Origin: Cloacibacillus sp. An23
Lineage (GTDB): Bacteria > Synergistota > Synergistia > Synergistales > Synergistaceae
Direction of reading: 5' to 3'
DNA: 64,000 bases
Assembly (NCBI RefSeq): GCF_002159945.1
Contig: NZ_NFJQ01000013.1
Span: 1 to 64,000, forward strand
Part shown: positions 434 to 11,729 of the stretch, in pieces
How the letters are laid out: every line of letters starts with the position of its first letter
Position numbering within the stretch: position 1 is the stretch's first letter
Program-made: the position numbers and the translations under genes
Notes under the pieces: generated by a model
What the model was told of the DNA's origin: nothing
Databases searched by the model: none
Seen by the model: the letters and a program-made list of their open reading frames with translations, nothing else

Positions 434-1339
434 ATGTCCATAATTATATTGATGTCTACTTATAATGGAGAAAAATACCTAAAAGCGCAAATAGAGAGTT
501 TATTATCCCAAACTATTAAGGTTGAAATCTTAGTGCGTGACGACGGATCGACAGATTCTACACAGCAAATACTTGATGATTATGCTCAAAGAGGAATGTT
601 GAAATGGTACAGCGGCAAAAATTTAGGTTCAGGAAAAAGTTTTTTTGACTTGGCTTGTAAAGCGCCCGATGCTGATTTTTATGCTTTTGCAGATCAAGAT
701 GATATCTGGGAGAATAAAAAAGTTGAGCTCGCTGTGCAACAACTAATGAAATTACCAAATAATAAGCCAAATCTGTATTGTGGTAGTTTTGAGCCTGTTG
801 ATGCAGAGTTAAATCCAATTTTAGTGAATAAACAAGTAAAGAATAAAATAATATCTTTGGGTACAGCTTTGTTAGAATGCATTGCGCCTGGTTGTACGTA
901 TGTTTTCAATAAAAAGGCACTGGAAAAGTTTAAAAAATATAAAATGGAGTATATTTCAATTCACGATTGGGACTTATATCGAATCGTTATGTCTCTGGGC
1001 GGAAATGTCGTGTATGATAATGAGCCCCACATTCTTTATAGACAACATGGCAATAATGCTGTCGGATTTCAATCTAGGAATTTAAAACATTGGTATGGAC
1101 GAATGAAACGTTTTTTATCTAAAAAGAATCGTAATACTAGGTATATGTCTGCGTGCCATATCAGAGAATGTTATTATGATGCAATGCCAGAACAAAATAG
1201 AAAGATAATATCAATACTAACTGAGTATCAAGACTCATTATGCAAAAGGCTGCGTTTTGCTAAATCCACTGAATTCGTTATGTCGCATAAAATTGATACA
1301 TTTATACTCTCTATACTGGCTCTAATTAAAAGGGTCTAA
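434..1339 (+). CDS. Glycosyltransferase family 2 (rhamnosyltransferase-like)
   Basis: 301 residues. The N-terminus is a typical GT-A family 2 fold: a start of the type IILMSTYNGEKYL, then RDDGSTD near residue 35 and the metal-binding region FADQDDIWE near residue 77. Length and the QDDIW signature resemble polysaccharide rhamnosyltransferases of the WbbL/RfbF type, which fits the rmlBACD genes in the window, but acceptor and linkage are unknown. A strong ribosome site GGAGG at 421-425 lies 8 bases before the ATG and fixes the start. The gene is AT-rich, contrasts with the chromosome to the right, and is followed after 4 bases by the polymerase-like gene, so the two are cotranscribed. Confidence 0.85.
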   Translation: MSIIILMSTYNGEKYLKAQIESLLSQTIKVEILVRDDGSTDSTQQILDDYAQRGMLKWYSGKNLGSGKSFFDLACKAPDADFYAFADQDDIWENKKVELAVQQLMKLPNNKPNLYCGSFEPVDAELNPILVNKQVKNKIISLGTALLECIAPGCTYVFNKKALEKFKKYKMEYISIHDWDLYRIVMSLGGNVVYDNEPHILYRQHGNNAVGFQSRNLKHWYGRMKRFLSKKNRNTRYMSACHIRECYYDAMPEQNRKIISILTEYQDSLCKRLRFAKSTEFVMSHKIDTFILSILALIKRV

Positions 1340-1343
1340 TGGT

Positions 1344-2537
1344 ATGAAGCTACACTCATTATTTTCGAGATACCAATTTTTTCATATAGTAAATATTTTT
1401 CTTATTTTAGGATATGTTTCTTTTGTAATTTTTATGCCAGCAGATAATTTGTCTTTGAAAAAAATAGTTTTGTTTTTAATATTGATAATCAATGCGCCGC
1501 TCTTGATAAATAGATTTATTGAGTTTCGCCCGCGAATGATATATCTATTTGGCCTAATATATCCTGTGTGTATATGTTTATGTTCTATTATTAGCGGCGG
1601 ATACGTATATGAATCTCTATCTGCTACATATTTTTTTATATCTTTGTTGCTAGTTGTTGTTATAATCGATTATGATATTCAGTATGAAAAAATTTTGGTT
1701 TTTGTGTTAGATTGTTTAGCAATTGTGATTTTGATTTCAGCTATTTTGGACTTTTTCGGTCTATATGACTTATATGATAATTATTTATTGATGTATTTAC
1801 ATCGTACAGGCAATGCAATGGTTGGTAAATCGATTATTTACACTGTGTTTTATATAATTTTCATAAAAACGTCACCTTTGTTGCTAATACCGTTATTGTA
1901 TTATCTGAATAACCGGCGTTATCTAACGGCAATCGTTATATTGTCTGCTCTGGTTTTATCTGGAACTCGCGCAAATATTTTCATGGGCATATTGGCAACT
2001 TTTGGATTTTTTCTTTTGTGCTATGAAAATAGATATGCCAAAGTGATTATCATTATAGGGATTATTCTTCTTGGTTTTTATTGGAGCAACGAAATTTATA
2101 ATATTTTAGTGAGCATTTTTCAAAGAAAAGCACATTCTGATGCTATTCGCTTAGGGCATTATTTATCAATCAGAGAAATACTGTCTGACCCTGTCAATCT
2201 TATATGGGGAATGGGATATGGCGTGCCTTTCTACAGTGCGGGTATCAATGCAATGACTTCTCAGACGGAGCTGTCTTATCTAGAAGTAATAAGGACGAGC
2301 GGCCTTCTTGGAGCTATTCCTTTGTTGTTTTTTTATATTTTTCCGCTTTATAAAATGTATAGTAATAAAAATAAAAGATATAAAATTATTGCTTGTGTTG
2401 GTTATCTTACTATTGCAGCAACAAATCCATTGCTGTTATCTACCACCGCATTTTTAATGTATATTTATATTTATGGTGATTATTATGTTGATTATTCTAT
2501 AAAAGATAATTTATTTATTCTTTTTCATGCTGATTAA
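1344..2537 (+). CDS. O-antigen polymerase/ligase-like membrane protein (Wzy-like)
   Basis: 397 residues, almost wholly hydrophobic, with about 10-11 predicted membrane segments and a large loop around residues 240-290. A short SGTRAN motif near residue 205 sits where Wzy/WaaL-type proteins carry a conserved arginine loop. Family members join undecaprenyl-linked repeat units, or ligate them, on the outer face of the cytoplasmic membrane. Sequence conservation in this group is poor, so the call rests on topology, motif and neighbours (glycosyltransferases, Wzx-like flippase). The last 27 bases overlap the 3' end of the opposite-strand flippase gene. It is among the most AT-rich genes here and probably came in with the cassette. 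Confidence 0.75.
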   Translation: MKLHSLFSRYQFFHIVNIFLILGYVSFVIFMPADNLSLKKIVLFLILIINAPLLINRFIEFRPRMIYLFGLIYPVCICLCSIISGGYVYESLSATYFFISLLLVVVIIDYDIQYEKILVFVLDCLAIVILISAILDFFGLYDLYDNYLLMYLHRTGNAMVGKSIIYTVFYIIFIKTSPLLLIPLLYYLNNRRYLTAIVILSALVLSGTRANIFMGILATFGFFLLCYENRYAKVIIIIGIILLGFYWSNEIYNILVSIFQRKAHSDAIRLGHYLSIREILSDPVNLIWGMGYGVPFYSAGINAMTSQTELSYLEVIRTSGLLGAIPLLFFYIFPLYKMYSNKNKRYKIIACVGYLTIAATNPLLLSTTAFLMYIYIYGDYYVDYSIKDNLFILFHAD

Positions 2538-3965
2538 ACTTTTTACAGTATCAATTATGTATCTGTGTTTTATGATCACAGCCAACGCGAGCGTAGCTAT
2601 ACAGGAGTAACGCAGGACAGGCGTCTTGTACGTAAACAGTATGGCGAAGCCGAAAGCCATGAAGAACGACGTGATGATAAAGAGCGTCTTCGTACTGTAG
2701 GCCTGCGCGCCGTCCAGATAGTCTCGGCATATTTTCTTCATGAATATGTAATGCATACCGGCGTAGACCATAAAGCACAGCAGCGTAGTGTATCCCGCGG
2801 CGTAGTAGCCGAATATGTCTATAAATATATAGTTCAGAATGAGCTTGAGCACGGCGCCGGACATCGTGGCTATAGCTATGAGGTGCGTCTTTTCGTAATA
2901 GAACTCAAAGACGGCGAAGAAGGTGTATGCGAACATGAAATACGAGCTCATAGCGACCGGCGGGATTATCCATATCGCGTCGTAGTATTCCGCTGGCGCG
3001 AATATCGCGACGACTTCTGGCGCGCAGGCCATGAGAGCGACGTTCACCCCAGCGATGATGATGAACGCGGGATAGGCCACGCGCGATATATTGCTTACAT
3101 CGCGCGCCTTGATTTTCTTATAAAGCCACGGCTCTATAGTCTGGAGCATGGAGCTGTTAAACAGCGTCATGATGAGCGACACGGAGTAGGCTAGAGAATA
3201 TATACCAGCCTCGCTCGCGCCTGTCATCTTCTCTATCATTATGCGGTCGGCTGTGTTCAATATAGAGCCGGAGAGATAATGCGGGACGAGCGGCAGGTTG
3301 AACAGCACCGCGTACTTCCAGACCTTCCACGAACAGAACTGCCTGCCGCGCAGCATCTGAGCAAAGAAAAGCCATGTATAGACGGCGAGCTCGACGACGG
3401 CAAGCCCGAGTATGCGGGCCGTGACCTTATCTTCCGCGTGAATAACGAGAAAAACGCCGAGCGCAGGCTTCGCGACGGCGACCAGCAAAGTGATTGCGAC
3501 GAGCTTTATATACTTGTAGTCCACCCTCTGCTCCGTAGCCCAGAAACTGAAAACCGAAGAAGTCCATACCATAACGAGCATCGCCGTCATCTGCACGGTC
3601 GTCAGAGAGAACAGCCCGTTCCAGAAATCACGGAACAGAAAATACACGACGGCCCAGACGCAGACCAGCGTAAGGCAAAGCCCATGCATCGCTGAAGAAT
3701 ATTGCCGCTGCCTGTCCTCGAACTTCACCAGCCCCTGAATATACACCCCGCCGAAAAGATTTAGCGTAACGATGACCGTCACAATACTGAGCCAAGAAGT
3801 AAACACGCTGAACATTCCATACTCCGCAGGCGTAAGAAGCCGCGTGAAAATGGGCGTTGTGATGACCGAAATCCCCTTCTGCACAAAGGAACAGATCAGG
3901 AACCAGAACGACGCCTTGAGCTGAATTGGGATTAATCTATATTTTTCAACGATTTGTAATAGCAT
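2511..3965 (-). CDS. Polysaccharide flippase, Wzx/MATE-type (oligosaccharide transporter)
   Basis: 484 residues with about 12-14 membrane segments. It starts with an amphipathic stretch followed by ASFWFLICSFVQKG and PIFTRLLTPAEYG, the hallmark N-terminus of PST/Wzx flippases, which carry lipid-linked repeat units across the cytoplasmic membrane. It is the last gene of the long - strand polysaccharide unit, and its 3' end overlaps the convergent Wzy-like gene by 27 bases. Its base composition is intermediate, higher in GC than the polymerase. A separate O-unit flippase and polymerase imply Wzx/Wzy-dependent assembly rather than an ABC-transporter route. Confidence 0.88.
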   Translation of the reverse strand: MLLQIVEKYRLIPIQLKASFWFLICSFVQKGISVITTPIFTRLLTPAEYGMFSVFTSWLSIVTVIVTLNLFGGVYIQGLVKFEDRQRQYSSAMHGLCLTLVCVWAVVYFLFRDFWNGLFSLTTVQMTAMLVMVWTSSVFSFWATEQRVDYKYIKLVAITLLVAVAKPALGVFLVIHAEDKVTARILGLAVVELAVYTWLFFAQMLRGRQFCSWKVWKYAVLFNLPLVPHYLSGSILNTADRIMIEKMTGASEAGIYSLAYSVSLIMTLFNSSMLQTIEPWLYKKIKARDVSNISRVAYPAFIIIAGVNVALMACAPEVVAIFAPAEYYDAIWIIPPVAMSSYFMFAYTFFAVFEFYYEKTHLIAIATMSGAVLKLILNYIFIDIFGYYAAGYTTLLCFMVYAGMHYIFMKKICRDYLDGAQAYSTKTLFIITSFFMAFGFAILFTYKTPVLRYSCIATLALAVIIKHRYIIDTVKSLISMKKNK

Positions 3966-4023: not shown

Positions 4024-4884
4024 TCATTTATCCTCATCACAAGATCTATCCTCTGTAATACTGTTCAAACATTCATAGATCTCTTTTACACTGTAAAACG
4101 TATATGTAGGTTTGACATTTCCGCTGAGAATCGCTTTTACGTCTGCCTCTCCGGTCAAAACACAGATCGATGCAATCCCTGCATTTTGTCCTGAAGCTAT
4201 ATCTGTGTACAACCTGTCTCCGATAATCACAGCCTGTGCTTTTGTTGTATTAAATTTCGTAAGTACAGCATCTATCATTGTCGCTTTCGGTTTACCTATG
4301 TAAACCGGCTTTCTCCCTGTAGCATTTTCAAGCATCATGCAGATCGAACCGCAATCTGGTATAAAACCAAACGAAACAGGACAGGCCAAGTCTGGGTTTG
4401 TCGCTATATATGGGATATCCTGCTGTAGTAGCTCGCATGTTTTCCGTATTTTTCCACTGGTAAGTTCTGTGTCAAACCCCACCAACACGACATCAACATC
4501 GCCTGATATGCCATCCGTGATGTTTATGCCGTTTTTACGCAGCTCGCGAATAAATGACTCTGTCCCTTGGCAGTACACGTTAGCTCCAGGATACTGCGTT
4601 TTAATATATAGCGCCGTCGCTTGCGTCGAAGTGAAGAAATTATCTTCATCGGCTTCAATACCAAGTTTGTTTATCTTATTCACATAATCGCCGACAGATT
4701 TTGACGAATTGTTGGTTACAAATACATATTTCCCGCCTATATTTTTTATATAGTGGAGAAGCTGCAATGTACCGTCAAACAATATATCATCTGTGTAAAT
4801 CGTCCCGTCCATGTCGAACAGAAACAGTTTTTTATTTATAAGTGACGTTGCCTCGACGCCAAAATAGTCACAATGTGTGTTCAT
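4024..4884 (-). CDS. HAD-IIA family phosphatase (NagD-like)
   Basis: 286 residues. The nucleophile motif DMDGT lies at residues 24-28, the TNNSS motif near residue 58, a GKP lysine motif near residue 193 and the GDRLYTDI metal motif near residue 223, the full set for HAD subclass IIA. These enzymes dephosphorylate small phosphate esters in the cytoplasm. It follows the nucleotidyltransferase gene after 20 bases, in one operon with a glycerol-phosphate dehydrogenase-like gene and a CDP-glycerol transferase. The likely substrate is therefore a triose or glycerol phosphate used to make the activated glycerol donor; this is inferred from context only. Confidence 0.85.
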   Translation of the reverse strand: MNTHCDYFGVEATSLINKKLFLFDMDGTIYTDDILFDGTLQLLHYIKNIGGKYVFVTNNSSKSVGDYVNKINKLGIEADEDNFFTSTQATALYIKTQYPGANVYCQGTESFIRELRKNGINITDGISGDVDVVLVGFDTELTSGKIRKTCELLQQDIPYIATNPDLACPVSFGFIPDCGSICMMLENATGRKPVYIGKPKATMIDAVLTKFNTTKAQAVIIGDRLYTDIASGQNAGIASICVLTGEADVKAILSGNVKPTYTFYSVKEIYECLNSITEDRSCDEDK

Positions 4885-4904
4885 AACCCCATCATCCCAC
4901 AGTA

Positions 4905-5612
4905 TCAGGCAAAAATTTTCTCTGCTTCCGCCAAGTCGTCAAGTGTATCGATTTCAAACCAGCGACCGTTAAGCGGACAGGCTTCAAATTCTACCTCTGC
5001 AAAAATATCGTTTATGGCGACCTCGCTCCATAGCTTAACATCATGCTTGATATCGATATATTCAGCACATTTGTTGAAAAATGCTTGGCTTCCATCTTCA
5101 AAAAACTTATATACATCTATGGATGTACCTAATGCCTCTGACGGAGGGATAGTCTTTGCAATTCTACATAATCTCCCGCCCTGCGCAGAGACTTTCATCG
5201 ACTCTTCTAAATATCTGCCATACTCGGCGATAACGGCATTCTGAGCATTGAAGCTAAGCAAGGTTTTTAATACAGATGAATCAAAAAACACATCGGCGTT
5301 CATCATAAGAAACGGATGTCCATAAAAATGTTCGAACGCTAGATATGCAGAATACATATTGTTCGTTGAAGCGTATTCTTTATTCTCTATGATATTTATC
5401 TGCGTCCCGAATTTTTCCGAGATATATGCAGTCAATATATTAGCTTTATATCCAGCTATTATGGTAATGTCATATATCCCATTCTCATATAAATTATCTA
5501 TTTGTTTTTCTAAAATTGGCTTGCCGTTAATAGACACTAACGATTTTGGACAAGTATCCGTAATCGGAGCCAATCTTGATCCTAAACCAGCTGCTAAAAT
5601 CAGTGCTTTCAT
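4905..5612 (-). CDS. Sugar-phosphate/glycerol-phosphate nucleotidyltransferase (LicC-like)
   Basis: 235 residues, a single Rossmann-like nucleotidyltransferase domain. The N-terminus LAAGLGSRL followed by PKSLVSINGKPIL is the NTP-binding signature, and an MNAD motif near residue 104 supplies the metal-binding aspartate. It resembles the phosphocholine/CTP cytidylyltransferase group more than RmlA. The ATG overlaps the stop of the upstream dehydrogenase by one base (TAATG), so the two are translationally coupled. Given the CDP-glycerol transferase nearby, its likely job is CTP-dependent activation of a glycerol phosphate. The nucleotide and substrate are inferred, not shown by the sequence. 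Confidence 0.85.
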   Translation of the reverse strand: MKALILAAGLGSRLAPITDTCPKSLVSINGKPILEKQIDNLYENGIYDITIIAGYKANILTAYISEKFGTQINIIENKEYASTNNMYSAYLAFEHFYGHPFLMMNADVFFDSSVLKTLLSFNAQNAVIAEYGRYLEESMKVSAQGGRLCRIAKTIPPSEALGTSIDVYKFFEDGSQAFFNKCAEYIDIKHDVKLWSEVAINDIFAEVEFEACPLNGRWFEIDTLDDLAEAEKIFA

Positions 5613-6646
5613 TATAGTTCACGCTCCAGTTCGTGATATATTTTTTCTAATCTTTGCGTGCTTAGGTCTGCCTCATTAAGATGCGTATATCTGTTTTTTC
5701 TCATTTTTGTAGCGTTTTGCAGGCAATGTATAAATGTACTTTGGTCTATTTCCAATTTGCGCGGATTGATGCATACGTCAAATTTAGATAAATATTCTGC
5801 GACGTTAGAATAATCAAGTCCTATTATTTTCAATACAGCAATAGTGCCCAGAGCCACTTGAATGCCGTGCAGATTACGTACTGTACCGTAATAATCTAAA
5901 GCGTGGCTGAAAAGATGTTCCGAACCGCTGACAGGGCGGCTGCTGCCAGCGAAGTTCATGGCAATACCAGACAGAACGAGCGAGTTCGCCAATACATTGA
6001 TAAAGTCTGGACAGATAGAATTATATTGTGTCTTCATCATGATATCTAACGATGTCTTAGACATCAGATACGCATACCCGTTCATGTCATCCATGTACCT
6101 GCTGCATGCAAAGTCCCAGTCTATTAATGCCGTATAATTTGATATAGTATCGCCTATTCCGGCTTTAATCAGCGAGACCGGACTGCTTAGGATAAGATCC
6201 GTGTCGAGGAGCAGCATACTTGGCACTGCGCAGCCTAGACTTTTGGGTTTGTTATCCTTCCCCTTCAGCACAGCAATCGGAGAAGCTATCCCATCATTCG
6301 CCATGGTCGTCGGTATTGACAGAAGCGGAACTTTTGCAATATACGCTGCGTATTTGCAAACGTCCAGAACTTTTCCGCCGCCGAGGCCAACGATGCATTT
6401 TATTTCTGAGATGATAACGTTTTCTGCGATGGCCATAGCGTAGGAAATAGTATTGTTGTCTACCAATTCTTCCGCAACGCTGTCTAGATCTTTAAGCTGT
6501 TCTTTTACAACATCTCCGAACAGATTATCAACGACAAAATCGGAAACGTAAAGGATTTTCCCTTTACATTGGTTACTGACCAACATGTCTGCGACATGCG
6601 TTATGTTGCCAGCTGATATTTTCAGTGAATTGGAGTCCCTAAGCAT
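5612..6646 (-). CDS. sn-Glycerol-1-phosphate dehydrogenase-like enzyme (iron-alcohol dehydrogenase superfamily)
   Basis: 344 residues. The NAD(P)-binding GLGGGKVLD near residue 88 and the PTTMANDGIASP segment near residue 117 are typical of the EgsA/AraM group, which reduces dihydroxyacetone phosphate to sn-glycerol 1-phosphate. Metal-ligand candidates are the D of the GIGD segment near residue 165 and two downstream histidines (SEHLFSH and NLHGIQ). It leads the three-gene set dehydrogenase-nucleotidyltransferase-phosphatase, with start spacing fixed by a GAGGG site. Three-gene sets of this make-up in pneumococcal capsule loci have, from memory, been tied to CDP-2-glycerol; here the product could be CDP-1- or CDP-2-glycerol. 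Confidence 0.85.
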   Translation of the reverse strand: MLRDSNSLKISAGNITHVADMLVSNQCKGKILYVSDFVVDNLFGDVVKEQLKDLDSVAEELVDNNTISYAMAIAENVIISEIKCIVGLGGGKVLDVCKYAAYIAKVPLLSIPTTMANDGIASPIAVLKGKDNKPKSLGCAVPSMLLLDTDLILSSPVSLIKAGIGDTISNYTALIDWDFACSRYMDDMNGYAYLMSKTSLDIMMKTQYNSICPDFINVLANSLVLSGIAMNFAGSSRPVSGSEHLFSHALDYYGTVRNLHGIQVALGTIAVLKIIGLDYSNVAEYLSKFDVCINPRKLEIDQSTFIHCLQNATKMRKNRYTHLNEADLSTQRLEKIYHELEREL

Positions 6647-6727
6647 ATTATATCCCTCTTATCATCACGTAAGGTTAAATTCAGCAATGTTTATAAACGT
6701 ATGTGGCTAGAGAAATATGTACATTTA

Positions 6728-6994
6728 TTATTGCGTCTTTTCACATGGCACAGTATCTAGTTTTTTCTCTCCGGTCTCGATAAAATGCACTATGCACTGC
6801 GCTATCCTTTCAGACGCTTTGCCGTCCTCAACATTCCCGATTTCTTCGAGAAAACGCGAAACTCGCTCGCGATACACTGCATCATTGAATTCTTGGATAT
6901 TTTTAATCAATTCTTCATTGGTATAAGAGATTGGGAACGGAAGGGAATCGTAATCAAGGTAGAACTCCCGTTCCTTTTTCTCGTATGATTTCAG
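6728..6994 (-). pseudogene. C-terminal remnant of a CDP-glycerol glycerophosphotransferase (TagF/TagB family)
   Basis: The - strand frame from the stop at 6995-6997 to 6728 is open for about 88 codons. Read without demanding a start it gives EREFYLDYDSLPFP followed by NEELIKNI and a VEDGKASERI tail. This is the usual C-terminus of CDP-glycerol transferases: an aromatic-rich (K/E)xRxFYxDY segment, PxPI, eLI, and the DGxxSxRI end. Nothing resembling the N-terminal 300 residues precedes it, only about 40 bases before the intact paralogue. It is best read as the 3' relic of a second family member lost by recombination when the present cassette was assembled. Confidence 0.7.
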
Positions 6995-7034
6995 TCATGG
7001 ATGAATAAAACCTATACAAAACTGCAAAATACAA

Positions 7035-8294
7035 TCATGTGTTATTGATAGCCATTTTAGCAGAAGTTGATGTTACATCTAAAATACATTCGTATAATTT
7101 ATACATATTGTCTTCATTAGGATAAATTGGCGATGTCCCATATACTATATTTTTCACTTGCTCTAGTTGCGAGTTTACATTTATAATATAATCATATTTT
7201 GCATTTTTGATATTGAGAATTGAATTTTTTAATTCATTTATACTTTTTACTTTTCTTCCTGGTGTCATTTTGACATAATCATATAAAAATCCTCTGTCTT
7301 TATTTAAATAATATTCATAATCAAAACAATAAAAGAGTACAGGTTTATTTAATAAAATATAATCAAAGAAAACAGAAGAATAATCTGTTATTAACATATC
7401 TGATATATCCAAGAAATTATATATATCGCTTTCCTTTGGTAAGTTAATGATTACATCTTTTGCTCTGGCATATGAAACATTGCTTTGTGATGCTGCAAAA
7501 TGGAATTTGGTAACTAAATATATATTATTTTTTTTAAGAAATGATTTCATTAATAAGGGAGTCTTTGCACAAATATCATTGAAAGTGATGCTATCTCTAA
7601 AAGTAGGTAAATACATAACAATATATTGACCCTGTTTCTTTGCCTCTAATATACTCTGTATAGCTGCTTTTTCATTGGGTAAATACATCTTTTTAATATA
7701 GCCCAGAATATAAGCGTGGCGTGGATATGGGCCAATTATAATTTTTTCATCGTTACACCCAAAGGCGAATTGCATATGTTTTGCTAACGTATCAGAAAAT
7801 GCAAGATAAAAAGCATCATTCCATTTCCCTATCTGATATTGAGTTTTAGCTTTGTTTTGTGCGATAGCGTCTCTAATATTTTTTATGTCATTGTTGCAAT
7901 AATAGCCGATTTTTTTTAATGGAAAACCATGCCATAAATTTATTCTTATAGCATCTGATGAACAAAATCGATTTAGATCTATGCCCCCTTCATCAACAAT
8001 ATGAAATTTTGCTCGTAGGTGATACCATATAGAAATCAAACTATTGGTATAAACAACATCTAAATTATTGTCCCTTAGTACTTTAAAAATAGTTTCATTT
8101 CGAGTTGTGAATACTACTTTCTTGAGGCCTAGTCTCGATTTATTCTGCACTAAAAATAGATAAAAAGCTTTTGAGTTATCTGCAAATCTCTGCCCAAACC
8201 ATCCGCCTATAACGATAATTTTAGAAGTTTTAGGAACCAATATAGAAAGAACACCTAATATTATATTAATTATTTTTTTTATATAGTATTTCAT
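7035..8294 (-). CDS. CDP-glycerol glycerophosphotransferase family protein
   Basis: 419 residues. Seen: an N-terminal hydrophobic helix (about residues 8-25) for membrane association, LWHGFPLKKIG near residue 118, LPTFRDS near residue 228, and ITDYSSVFFDY near residue 308 followed by KPVLFYCFD. These are the conserved landmarks of the TagB/TagF GT-B fold, which transfers glycerol phosphate from CDP-glycerol to a lipid-linked or polymer acceptor at the inner membrane face. The gene is strongly AT-rich, unlike the rml genes 34 bases upstream. The linked dehydrogenase, nucleotidyltransferase and phosphatase genes probably make its donor. In a diderm this points to a glycerol-phosphate decoration of the O-unit rather than a wall teichoic acid. 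Confidence 0.88.
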   Translation of the reverse strand: MKYYIKKIINIILGVLSILVPKTSKIIVIGGWFGQRFADNSKAFYLFLVQNKSRLGLKKVVFTTRNETIFKVLRDNNLDVVYTNSLISIWYHLRAKFHIVDEGGIDLNRFCSSDAIRINLWHGFPLKKIGYYCNNDIKNIRDAIAQNKAKTQYQIGKWNDAFYLAFSDTLAKHMQFAFGCNDEKIIIGPYPRHAYILGYIKKMYLPNEKAAIQSILEAKKQGQYIVMYLPTFRDSITFNDICAKTPLLMKSFLKKNNIYLVTKFHFAASQSNVSYARAKDVIINLPKESDIYNFLDISDMLITDYSSVFFDYILLNKPVLFYCFDYEYYLNKDRGFLYDYVKMTPGRKVKSINELKNSILNIKNAKYDYIINVNSQLEQVKNIVYGTSPIYPNEDNMYKLYECILDVTSTSAKMAINNT

Positions 8295-8327: not shown

Positions 8328-9218
8328 TTATAGTACCTGTTTTAGTGAGATGTCCCAATCTAGAAGCCGTAGCATAAAGGTCTCATATAACTTGTGATGG
8401 GACAAAGCAGACAAATATGGTCTAAGAGCAACAGAACGATATTGTTCTGACGTTATTGGTAAAATTGTTGTAGATATATGTTCATGTACCTTTAGCATAT
8501 CCTTTATAGCATTTGCAAACCCATACCACGTCGTGACTCCGCTGTTCGTCAGGTTGTAAACGCCGCTTATTTTACGCATATCTGCGCTGCACAGCGGGCT
8601 TTGTACCTGCGCGAGAGCCTGCGCGGTGGCTTCCGCTATCGTGCGGCACCAGGTGGGCGCGCCGTACTGGTCGTTTACTACGCGGATTTCGTCTTTTTCC
8701 CGAAGCATTTTGCGCATGGTTAGGTAGAAGTTTTTGCCTCTCGCGCCGTAGACCCAGCTGGTGCGGAAAATCAGGTGTTTGCAGCCGGAGCTCTGGATGT
8801 TGAGGTCTCCGGCCAGTTTGGATTCGCCGTAGACGTTGAGCGGGTTGGGCTTGTCGTCTTCCGTCCACGGCTCTTTTTTCGTGCCGTCGAAGACGTAGTC
8901 GGTGGAGTAGTGGGTCATGAGGGCGTCGTGCTTTGCGGCCCAGTCGGCCATTATGCCGGGGGCGTCGGCGTTGAGTTTGAAGGCGAGCCCGCGCTCCGTT
9001 TCCGCCCTGTCAACTGCCGTGTAGGCGGCGGCGTTGGCTATCACCGACGGCTTGTACGCGTCGAGAGTGTTTATTATCGAGGCTTTGTCGGTCAGGTCGC
9101 ATTCGTCTATGTCGACGGCGCGGATCTCTCCGAGCGTCGAGAGCGTGCGGCAGAGTTCCCAGCCGACTTGTCCGTTTTTGCCGAATATCAGTATTCTTGA
9201 TTTTTTAGTTTCGTCCAT
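8328..9218 (-). CDS. rmlD: dTDP-4-dehydrorhamnose reductase
   Basis: 296 residues, an SDR-type reductase that completes dTDP-L-rhamnose by reducing dTDP-6-deoxy-L-lyxo-4-hexulose. The Rossmann motif GKNGQVG lies near residue 13, the STDYVFDG signature near residue 105, and the catalytic YGESKLAG near residue 130. It is fourth in the rmlB-rmlA-rmlC-rmlD run and starts 13 bases after rmlC. The last about 60 codons (8328-8520) are AT-rich and differ from the GC-rich body of the gene; hand count gives about 36% GC over 8341-8520 against about 59% over 8521-8700. The C-terminus is thus probably from another lineage, although the frame is intact. Confidence 0.95.
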   Translation of the reverse strand: MDETKKSRILIFGKNGQVGWELCRTLSTLGEIRAVDIDECDLTDKASIINTLDAYKPSVIANAAAYTAVDRAETERGLAFKLNADAPGIMADWAAKHDALMTHYSTDYVFDGTKKEPWTEDDKPNPLNVYGESKLAGDLNIQSSGCKHLIFRTSWVYGARGKNFYLTMRKMLREKDEIRVVNDQYGAPTWCRTIAEATAQALAQVQSPLCSADMRKISGVYNLTNSGVTTWYGFANAIKDMLKVHEHISTTILPITSEQYRSVALRPYLSALSHHKLYETFMLRLLDWDISLKQVL

Positions 9219-9231
9219 CGTTCGCCACCGT

Positions 9232-9780
9232 CTAATCGAATAGGAGTTCGTCTTGTAAATCTTTGAAATAGGGATGTTTCGTGTCCTTCTCGGAAATCAC
9301 GGGCTCGCTCATGGGCCACGGGATGGCGAGCGTCGGGTCGTTCCAGATTATGCCGCGTTCGCTTTCGGGGCTATATCTGTCGGTGCATTTGTATTGGAAT
9401 AGCGCCGTTTCGGATAGGACGCAGAATCCGTGAGCGAAGCCGCGCGGGACGTAGAGCTGTTCTTTGCATTCCCCGGTGAGCGTGAAGCCCTTCCATTTCC
9501 CAAATGTCGGCGAGCTGCGGCGCAGGTCTACGACTACGTCCCAGACTTCGCCCACGAGGACGGAGACGAGTTTGCCCTGCGTGTACGGCTTTTGGTAGTG
9601 GAGGCCGCGCAGGACGCCGCGAGAGGAGAACGAGACGTTGTCCTGTACGAAATCCTCCGTTATGCCGGAGTTTTCGTAGCGTTCTTTGTTCCACGATTCG
9701 TAGAAGTATCCGCGTGCGTCGCCGAAGATTTTCGGTTTTATGAGAACGAGTCCCGGAAATTCTGTCGTCAGTATTTCCAT
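9232..9780 (-). CDS. rmlC: dTDP-4-dehydrorhamnose 3,5-epimerase
   Basis: 182 residues, a cupin epimerase of usual family length. It converts dTDP-4-keto-6-deoxyglucose to the L-lyxo form. Conserved features are DARGYFYES near residue 22, FVQDNVSFSSRGVLRGLHYQ near residues 43-62 with the catalytic His, and PRGFAHGF near residue 112. It lies 3 bases from rmlA and 13 bases from rmlD in the same direction, so it is part of one transcript making dTDP-L-rhamnose for the surface polysaccharide. Confidence 0.95.
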   Translation of the reverse strand: MEILTTEFPGLVLIKPKIFGDARGYFYESWNKERYENSGITEDFVQDNVSFSSRGVLRGLHYQKPYTQGKLVSVLVGEVWDVVVDLRRSSPTFGKWKGFTLTGECKEQLYVPRGFAHGFCVLSETALFQYKCTDRYSPESERGIIWNDPTLAIPWPMSEPVISEKDTKHPYFKDLQDELLFD

Positions 9781-9783
9781 ATT

Positions 9784-10665
9784 TTACAGTCCTTTTGCGG
9801 AAAGCTGTTTCATGAGGTATTTGCCGTATTCCGTTTTCGACAAAGGCGCGGCGAGTTCGCGCAAGTGGCTGTCGGAGACCCAGCCAGTGCGCCACGCTAT
9901 TTCTTCGGGGCATGAGATCATCAGCCCCTGACGCTTCTGGACAATCTGGACGAAGTCCGCCGCCTCTATCAGGCTGTCGTGCGTGCCCGTGTCGAGCCAC
10001 GTGAAGCCGCGCCCGAAGACTTCTACTTTCAGCTGTTTCTGCGCTAGGTAGACTTTGTTGAGGTCTGTTATTTCCAGCTCGCCGCGCGCGGAGGGCTTCA
10101 TGTTTTTCGCTATGTCTACGACCTGACCGTCGTAGAAGTAGAGGCCGACGACGGCGCAGTTTGATTTCGGCTTCGCGGGTTTTTCTTCGAGGGACACGGC
10201 GTTTCCGTCCGCGTCGAATTCCACTACGCCGTAGCGCTCCGGGTCATCGACGGGGTAGCCGAAGACGGTCGCGCCGCTTTCCTGCGAGGCCGCCTCGCGC
10301 AGCATCTTCGTCAGTCCGCGCCCGTAGAATATGTTGTCGCCGAGCACGAGCGCGCAGCCCTGTCCCGCGATGAATTCCTCGCCGATGATGAACGCCTGCG
10401 CCAGTCCTTCGGGCTTGGGCTGCACGGCGTAGGATATTTTTATTCCCCACTGCGAGCCGTCTTTCAGCAGCCGGCGGAACGACTCTCCGTCCTCCGGCGT
10501 CGTGATGACGAGTATGTCGCGTATGCCCGCTAGCATGAGCGTCGAGAGCGGGTAGTAGATCATAGGCTTGTCGTAGACCGGCATGAGCTGTTTGCTGACC
10601 GGTATCGTGAGCGGCCAGAGGCGCGTGCCGGAGCCGCCCGCGAGGATGATGCCCTTCGTAATCAT
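9784..10665 (-). CDS. rmlA: Glucose-1-phosphate thymidylyltransferase
   Basis: 293 residues, the short RmlA form. The signature [16 protein letters not shown] near the N-terminus is the dTTP-binding loop, with [13 protein letters not shown] after it, and the [11 protein letters not shown] and LGDNIFYG motifs of the active site follow. It joins dTTP and glucose 1-phosphate, the first step of dTDP-rhamnose synthesis. The start overlaps the end of rmlB by 4 bases (ATGA), showing translational coupling. Confidence 0.96.
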
Positions 10666-11729
10666 TGCTCGTCCCCTCCGAGGCCGAGGCGTTCACAGCG
10701 GTATTTACCATTTAAAATGTTCGCAATCCACTGCTGATTATCTAAATACCATTTTATTGTTTTCAGTATGCCGCTTTCGAATGTTTCCTGCGGCTGCCAG
10801 CCGAGTTCGCGCTTTATCTTGGAGGCATCGATCGCGTAGCGCCGGTCGTGTCCCGGGCGGTCTTTTACGAATTTTATCTGCTCTTCGTATTTCGCTCCGC
10901 CGGCCTTCGGGCGCAGTTCATCGAGTATAGAACAGATTGTCTTTACTATCTGTATGTTCTGCCGTTCGCAGCTGCCGCCGACGTTGTACGTTTCGCCCGG
11001 GACGCCAAGCCGCATTACCGTGTCGAGGGCGCGGCAGTGGTCTTCAACGTAGAGCCAGTCGCGGATGTTTTTACCGTCGCCGTAAACCGGAAGCTCCTTG
11101 TCGGCGAGCGCGTTGTGGATTATCAGCGGGATGAGCTTTTCCGGGAACTGGCGCGGCCCGTAGTTGTTGGAGCAGTTCGTCGTCAGCACAGGCAGGCCGT
11201 AGGTGTGGAACCACGCGCGGACGAGATGGTCGGAGGAGGCTTTCGACGCGGAGTAGGGCGAATTCGGAGCGTAGGGCGTGTTTTCGGTGAAATATCCCGT
11301 TTTGCCGAGGCTTCCGTAAACTTCGTCGGTCGATATGTGCAGGAACCGGAATCCGCTTCTGCGCTCGCCGTCCAGCGATTCATAATAGCGGCGCGCCGCC
11401 GTGAGCATCGAGAACGTGCCGTTTATGTTTGTCTCAATGAACGCTGCGGGGCCGTCTATGGAGCGATCGACATGGCTTTCCGCGGCCAGGTGGAATACTG
11501 CGTCTATGCCGTATTCGCAGAGAGTCCGATAGACGAGCTCCGTATCGCAAATATCGCCTTTGACGAAGCTCATACGTTCGCACGGAATCCCTTCGAGCGA
11601 GGCCGGATTACCTGCGTAGGTCAGCTTGTCGTAGACTACTACGTATGCGTCCTGCGAGGTCAGAAAGTGCGCCAGGTTGCTTCCGATGAACCCCGCCGCG
11701 CCTGTAAGCATGTATCGTTTTTGCGTCAT
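10662..11729 (-). CDS. rmlB: dTDP-glucose 4,6-dehydratase
   Basis: 355 residues, an extended SDR. The NAD-binding [11 protein letters not shown] lies at about residues 9-19, [12 protein letters not shown] near residue 80, the active-site STDEVYG near residue 133, and [10 protein letters not shown] near residue 160 supplies the catalytic Tyr/Lys. It forms dTDP-4-keto-6-deoxyglucose. It is the first gene of the - strand polysaccharide unit. The gap to the + strand phosphatase gene (about 180 bases) carries an extended -10 element in its direction at 11773-11781. Confidence 0.96.

Follow-up and report, generated by a model that had tools for sequence, protein, structure and literature searches.

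A gtp-type gene cassette, probably for CDP-2-glycerol, in a probable rhamnose-containing surface polysaccharide locus of a Synergistota bacterium

The window, the whole stretch of 64,000 nucleotides analysed here, comes from the 2.9 Mb genome of Cloacibacillus sp. An23. It covers the first 64 kb of its contig, which starts at window base 1; the polysaccharide cluster is visible only from there on, so that its product may or may not be an O-antigen. The minus strand carries, in order, rmlB, rmlA, rmlC, rmlD and the genes for a Glyphos_transf protein, a dehydrogenase of the glycerol-1-phosphate dehydrogenase (G1PDH) family, a LicC-like nucleotidyltransferase, a HAD-IIA protein and Wzx. Facing the cassette from the plus strand are genes for a glycosyltransferase of family 2 and for a polytopic protein (Table 1). 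The four cassette proteins are intact open reading frames with the family matches listed, which confirms the set of enzymes that a sequence-only reading had described as colinear. Colinearity holds but strict contiguity does not: 388 bases separate the transferase gene from the dehydrogenase gene, and they contain an 84-residue open stretch that corresponds to the C-terminal end of a Glyphos_transf protein. Downstream of this gap the spacing is tight. A single base is common to the dehydrogenase and nucleotidyltransferase genes, 20 bases separate the latter from the HAD gene and a further 58 lie before wzx, so that these four genes look like one transcription unit. At the far end, the convergent wzx and probable wzy genes share their last 27 bases (window 2511-2537) and differ strongly in GC content, 50% versus 30%; this overlap is likely a mosaic join.

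Table 1. Features of the polysaccharide locus, with the evidence for each assignment
Feature	Position	Strand	Evidence
WchX-like glycerophosphotransferase, Glyphos_transf, 419 aa	7035..8294	-	PF04464 2.4e-49; TagF/TarL structure matches
Remnant of second Glyphos_transf gene, C-terminal end only	6728..6994	-	PF04464 positions 301-366, 1.4e-8
gtp1-like dehydrogenase, G1PDH/EgsA/AraM family	5612..6646	-	Profiles, tree branch, G1PDH-specific residues
gtp2-like LicC-type nucleotidyltransferase	4905..5612	-	NTP_transferase 3.8e-15; LicC 1jyk
gtp3-like HAD-IIA protein	4024..4884	-	HAD-IIA 1.1e-46; catalytic motifs; Gtp3 branch in HAD tree
Wzx-type flippase	2511..3965	-	Polysacc_synt 5.5e-17
rmlD, rmlC, rmlA, rmlB, dTDP-L-rhamnose synthesis	8328..11729	-	Family profile matches
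Family 2 glycosyltransferase and probable Wzy	434..2537	+	Glycos_transf_2 1e-16; hydropathy, about 11 membrane segments

The intact transferase shares 41% identity with its counterpart from the same cassette in L170, a Clostridiales genome. It has a single domain and scores under the TarF cut-off, and a role in adding side groups is more likely than one as a polymerase. What of the relict beside it? Within the set it is closest to the transferase next to gtp2 in L052 (Bacilli), not to its intact neighbour, and for this reason it seems that the cassette originally had a different transferase, later replaced by the present one.

The dehydrogenase matches Fe-ADH_2 (1.4e-28) and the NCBIfam model for G1P dehydrogenase (1.2e-75), and it falls below the equivalog cut-off for G1PDH (254.7 bits versus 413). 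Its earlier description as EgsA/AraM-like stands at the level of the family and not in the tree, where it sits in a bacterial gtp1 branch rather than in the AraM branch. We took as G1PDH-specific those residues that AraM-type and archaeal enzymes share but that none of the five glycerol dehydrogenases compared has. The window protein keeps D176, W177, S236, P238, S240, G241, E243, S247, H248, R316 and R319, which cluster around the metal site and the C-terminus, and the same residues are found in all six gtp1-type relatives with S236T as the sole exception. These retained motifs are suggestive of dihydroxyacetone phosphate (DHAP), over dihydroxyacetone, as the substrate. A glycerol dehydrogenase assignment was rejected, given the weaker profile score and the lack of the G1PDH motifs in glycerol dehydrogenases. 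The Glu of the LHGEQ motif was dropped as a substrate marker, as AraM-type proteins also lack it.

The best solved relative of the nucleotidyltransferase, Gtp2, is LicC (1jyk, 2.7e-21). In a scan of species genomes made with a Gtp2 alignment it proved 53-65% identical to ten Firmicutes proteins, nine of them at 57-65%, from mostly gut-type Firmicutes, and one at 53%. It matches NTP_transferase and not PF01467 (CTP_transf_like), and so does not carry the domain by which TagD/GCT enzymes are recognised. A PF01467 search of the bacterium's own genome returned only four proteins (open frames of 178-674 aa), with no obvious TagD-type enzyme among them. The longest, a 674-aa open frame at G000:C6:204407-205438, has a CTP_transf_like match together with a distant LicC-like match, and long proteins similar to it recur across Synergistota.

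The HAD-IIA protein, Gtp3, scores 159.7 bits against its profile, above the cut-off of 100.15, and all four catalytic motifs are present (DMDGT, TNNSS, GKP, GDRLYTD). In the HAD tree the proteins encoded beside Gtp2 share one branch (89/95), from which the remaining HAD-IIA proteins of their genomes are separate; fused HADs, described below, make another branch.

How constant is the company that these genes keep? The order wchX-gtp1-gtp2-gtp3 recurs in three other genomes, L170 (Clostridiales), L166 (Clostridia) and L167 (Bacilli), and in L170 it is accompanied by rmlACBD and wzx. Because the same order also stands in published pneumococcal loci, the cassette is not a chance assembly. Partial sets are found as well: gtp1-gtp2-gtp3 in L047, gtp2-gtp3 with the tail of gtp1 at the contig edge in L050, gtp2-gtp3 in L045 and L049, where no close gtp1 occurs anywhere in either genome, gtp1-gtp2 without a Gtp3-branch HAD in L046, and gtp2 with no partner next to it in L048, L051, L052 and L053, the L052 genome having a Gtp3-branch HAD about 13 kb from gtp2. 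In three phyla, represented by Gastranaerophilales, Acetomicrobium and Psychrobacillus, the nucleotidyltransferase and the HAD are one protein, and each such fusion has a Glyphos_transf gene upstream. Their fusion in single proteins is good evidence that Gtp2 and Gtp3 would act in one pathway. Six genomes, among them the three with fusions, show the HAD but not the dehydrogenase, and one shows the dehydrogenase but not the HAD; these are small numbers in a set where several genomes are incomplete.

Several variants of the arrangement deserve mention. In L045 (5211-7519) a gene of the CDP-alcohol phosphatidyltransferase family replaces the Glyphos_transf gene and gtp1 ahead of gtp2-gtp3. In the Gastranaerophilales genome L055 (6001-8549) a divergent second GpsA-family gene directly follows the Gtp2-Gtp3 fusion, with another GpsA elsewhere in the genome, as if a G3P dehydrogenase were standing in for Gtp1. 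Three Bacilli genomes (L177, L178, L179) carry a HAD-less set of a CDP-alcohol transferase, a LicC-like nucleotidyltransferase, a G1PDH-family dehydrogenase and an ABC polysaccharide exporter, and their dehydrogenases occupy their own branch of the tree. In another genome of the same family as the window's host (L006:1138-3455) an AraM-type dehydrogenase gene overlaps a HAD-IIA gene, recalling araM-araL of Bacillus subtilis.

What might the cassette make? There is good support for the first proposal, a pathway that activates glycerol and supplies it to a glycerophosphotransferase within a diderm polysaccharide locus. We consider it probable that this is a gtp-type cassette for CDP-2-glycerol in a Wzx/Wzy-type, rhamnose-containing surface polysaccharide locus, and that it came to Synergistota from gut Firmicutes. 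The 2-linked form, which had been offered as an alternative, thus becomes the best supported: the cassette matches the CDP-2-glycerol set of pneumococcal serotypes 23F and 15B/C, and it is this match in gene order, together with the HAD accompanying Gtp2 or being fused to it more often than the dehydrogenase, that favours it. Gtp1 and Gtp3 would then supply glycerol-2-phosphate, Gtp2 would activate it with CTP, and the WchX-like transferase would put it on the repeat unit before Wzx flips the unit across. Wang et al. are said to have found in 2010 that Gtp1 is a dihydroxyacetone reductase, Gtp3 a glycerol-2-phosphotransferase and Gtp2 the cytidylyltransferase yielding CDP-2-glycerol, and glycerol-2-phosphate might accordingly be reached as is reported for pneumococcus, from dihydroxyacetone by way of glycerol. 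A second possible route runs from DHAP by way of sn-glycerol-1-phosphate (G1P), whose phosphate the HAD would then shift. That the dehydrogenase motifs fit DHAP better than dihydroxyacetone counts against the CDP-2-glycerol reading in its reported form, and points to a possible weak spot in the pneumococcal pathway as reported: the signatures and the gene swap suggest entry at DHAP and G1P, not at dihydroxyacetone and glycerol. The retained G1PDH motifs and the GpsA-family gene after the Gastranaerophilales fusion suggest a reductase step that would begin at DHAP, with the HAD moving the phosphate to C2. From the same two observations we put forward, tentatively and as less likely than not, that the Gtp3-type HAD-IIA protein is a glycerol-phosphate mutase or transphosphorylase, converting G1P (made by Gtp1 from DHAP) or G3P to glycerol-2-phosphate. 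Glycerol-2-phosphate is achiral. If the mutase idea is true, the stereochemistry of the dehydrogenase would be erased in this intermediate, and either enantiomer would serve.

Does the locus instead build a polymer of opposite-handed glycerol phosphate, as had been suggested from the dehydrogenase family? The dehydrogenase would make G1P from DHAP, the LicC-like enzyme CDP-1-glycerol from G1P, and the HAD would be an accessory or clean-up phosphatase. The kept G1PDH-specific residues favour this, as do profile scores far higher with G1PDH than with glycerol dehydrogenase models, the existence of HAD-less nucleotidyltransferase-dehydrogenase pairs (L177-L179, L075, L046), and the in vitro acceptance of CDP-1-glycerol by TagF-like polymerases (PMC8262930). 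With a direct route, however, one would expect the dehydrogenase and nucleotidyltransferase to be constant and the HAD optional, and the opposite is observed: the HAD, fused to Gtp2 in three phyla, follows Gtp2 the more faithfully, which argues against a plain path from G1P to CDP-1-glycerol. The dehydrogenases of the HAD-less L177-L179 sets sit on another branch, and the window has the gene order of a known CDP-2-glycerol locus. G1P stereochemistry is therefore a second choice, and an unlikely one. Were it true, the locus would make a bacterial polysaccharide from CDP-activated G1P; the evidence tends the other way, and L177-L179 are better candidates than the window for such a route. That the trio activates some other small polyol or sugar phosphate is very improbable. 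In favour of this, iron-type dehydrogenases, LicC-like enzymes and HAD-IIA proteins are all broad families and the roles assigned to them in these loci come from sequence, but a CDP-glycerol-type transferase adjoins the trio and the gene order is that of the pneumococcal glycerol set. G3P is present in all bacteria, which counts for ordinary CDP-3-glycerol made from this central metabolite, as does the GpsA-family gene in L055. Such a pathway, with dehydrogenase and HAD in side roles, would use the customary donor of TagF-type transferases, but it is very improbable, as it leaves the conserved gtp1 and gtp3 genes unexplained and most known G3P cytidylyltransferases come from a different family (PMC8262930), with no obvious one in this genome.

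Where did the cassette come from? At 28-43% its GC content lies below that of rml (53-60%) and of the remaining window sequence (58%). Of 188 Synergistota genomes only 3 contain a clear Gtp2 relative, in one case as the fusion, and for Gtp1, Gtp2 and Gtp3 alike the closest sequences come from gut Clostridia. For these reasons acquisition from Firmicutes is the simplest account and probably the right one. Firmicutes rarely carry the cassette either: it was present in 2 of 391 Clostridia-class genomes and in 2 of 399 from the Bacilli class, and both counts include the genome around which the sample was drawn. No Gtp2 relatives were seen in the viral contigs scanned, and plasmid searches with Gtp1 and Gtp2 returned only distant family members. 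Neither protein turned up at the thresholds used among 284 genomes from a Streptococcus-type genus, in a search that included no known positive, so that this absence is uninformative.

How does the locus compare with known systems? The transferase has the Glyphos_transf domain in common with TagF/TarF and TagF-like capsule polymerases, from which its single domain and sub-threshold TarF score set it apart. The dehydrogenase belongs to one family with the G1P dehydrogenases EgsA and AraM, with metal-site and C-terminal motifs in common, but it falls below their equivalog cut-off and off the AraM branch, and its setting is a polysaccharide locus rather than lipid or arabinose metabolism. In the araABDLMNPQ operon of B. 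subtilis, as in the window, a NagD-type HAD-IIA gene (araL) adjoins a G1PDH-family gene (araM); unlike the window, that operon has neither nucleotidyltransferase nor glycerophosphotransferase, and AraL is a low-specificity phosphatase for which activity on glycerol 3-phosphate was not seen (PMC3207120). The closest likeness is to Streptococcus pneumoniae, where the 23F locus reads wzx, wchX, gtp1, gtp2, gtp3, rmlA, rmlC, rmlB, rmlD (PMC3493582) and the 15B/C locus wzx, wciZ, wchX, gtp1, gtp2, gtp3 (PMC5207522). The window has the identical wchX-gtp1-gtp2-gtp3 order, the same kinds of enzymes as named there, and wzx and rml as neighbours; gene order and names are what make its proteins candidate homologs of the assayed pneumococcal Gtp enzymes. 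It differs in its host, a diderm, in having rml upstream rather than downstream, and in a transferase that seems to have been substituted for another, leaving a remnant. Most likely, then, the finding amounts to a known pathway in a new host, and not to a polymer of opposite-handed glycerol. The cassette, seldom met and known from the capsules of pneumococci, now extends to Clostridia and a diderm phylum, and it appears to move as a unit.
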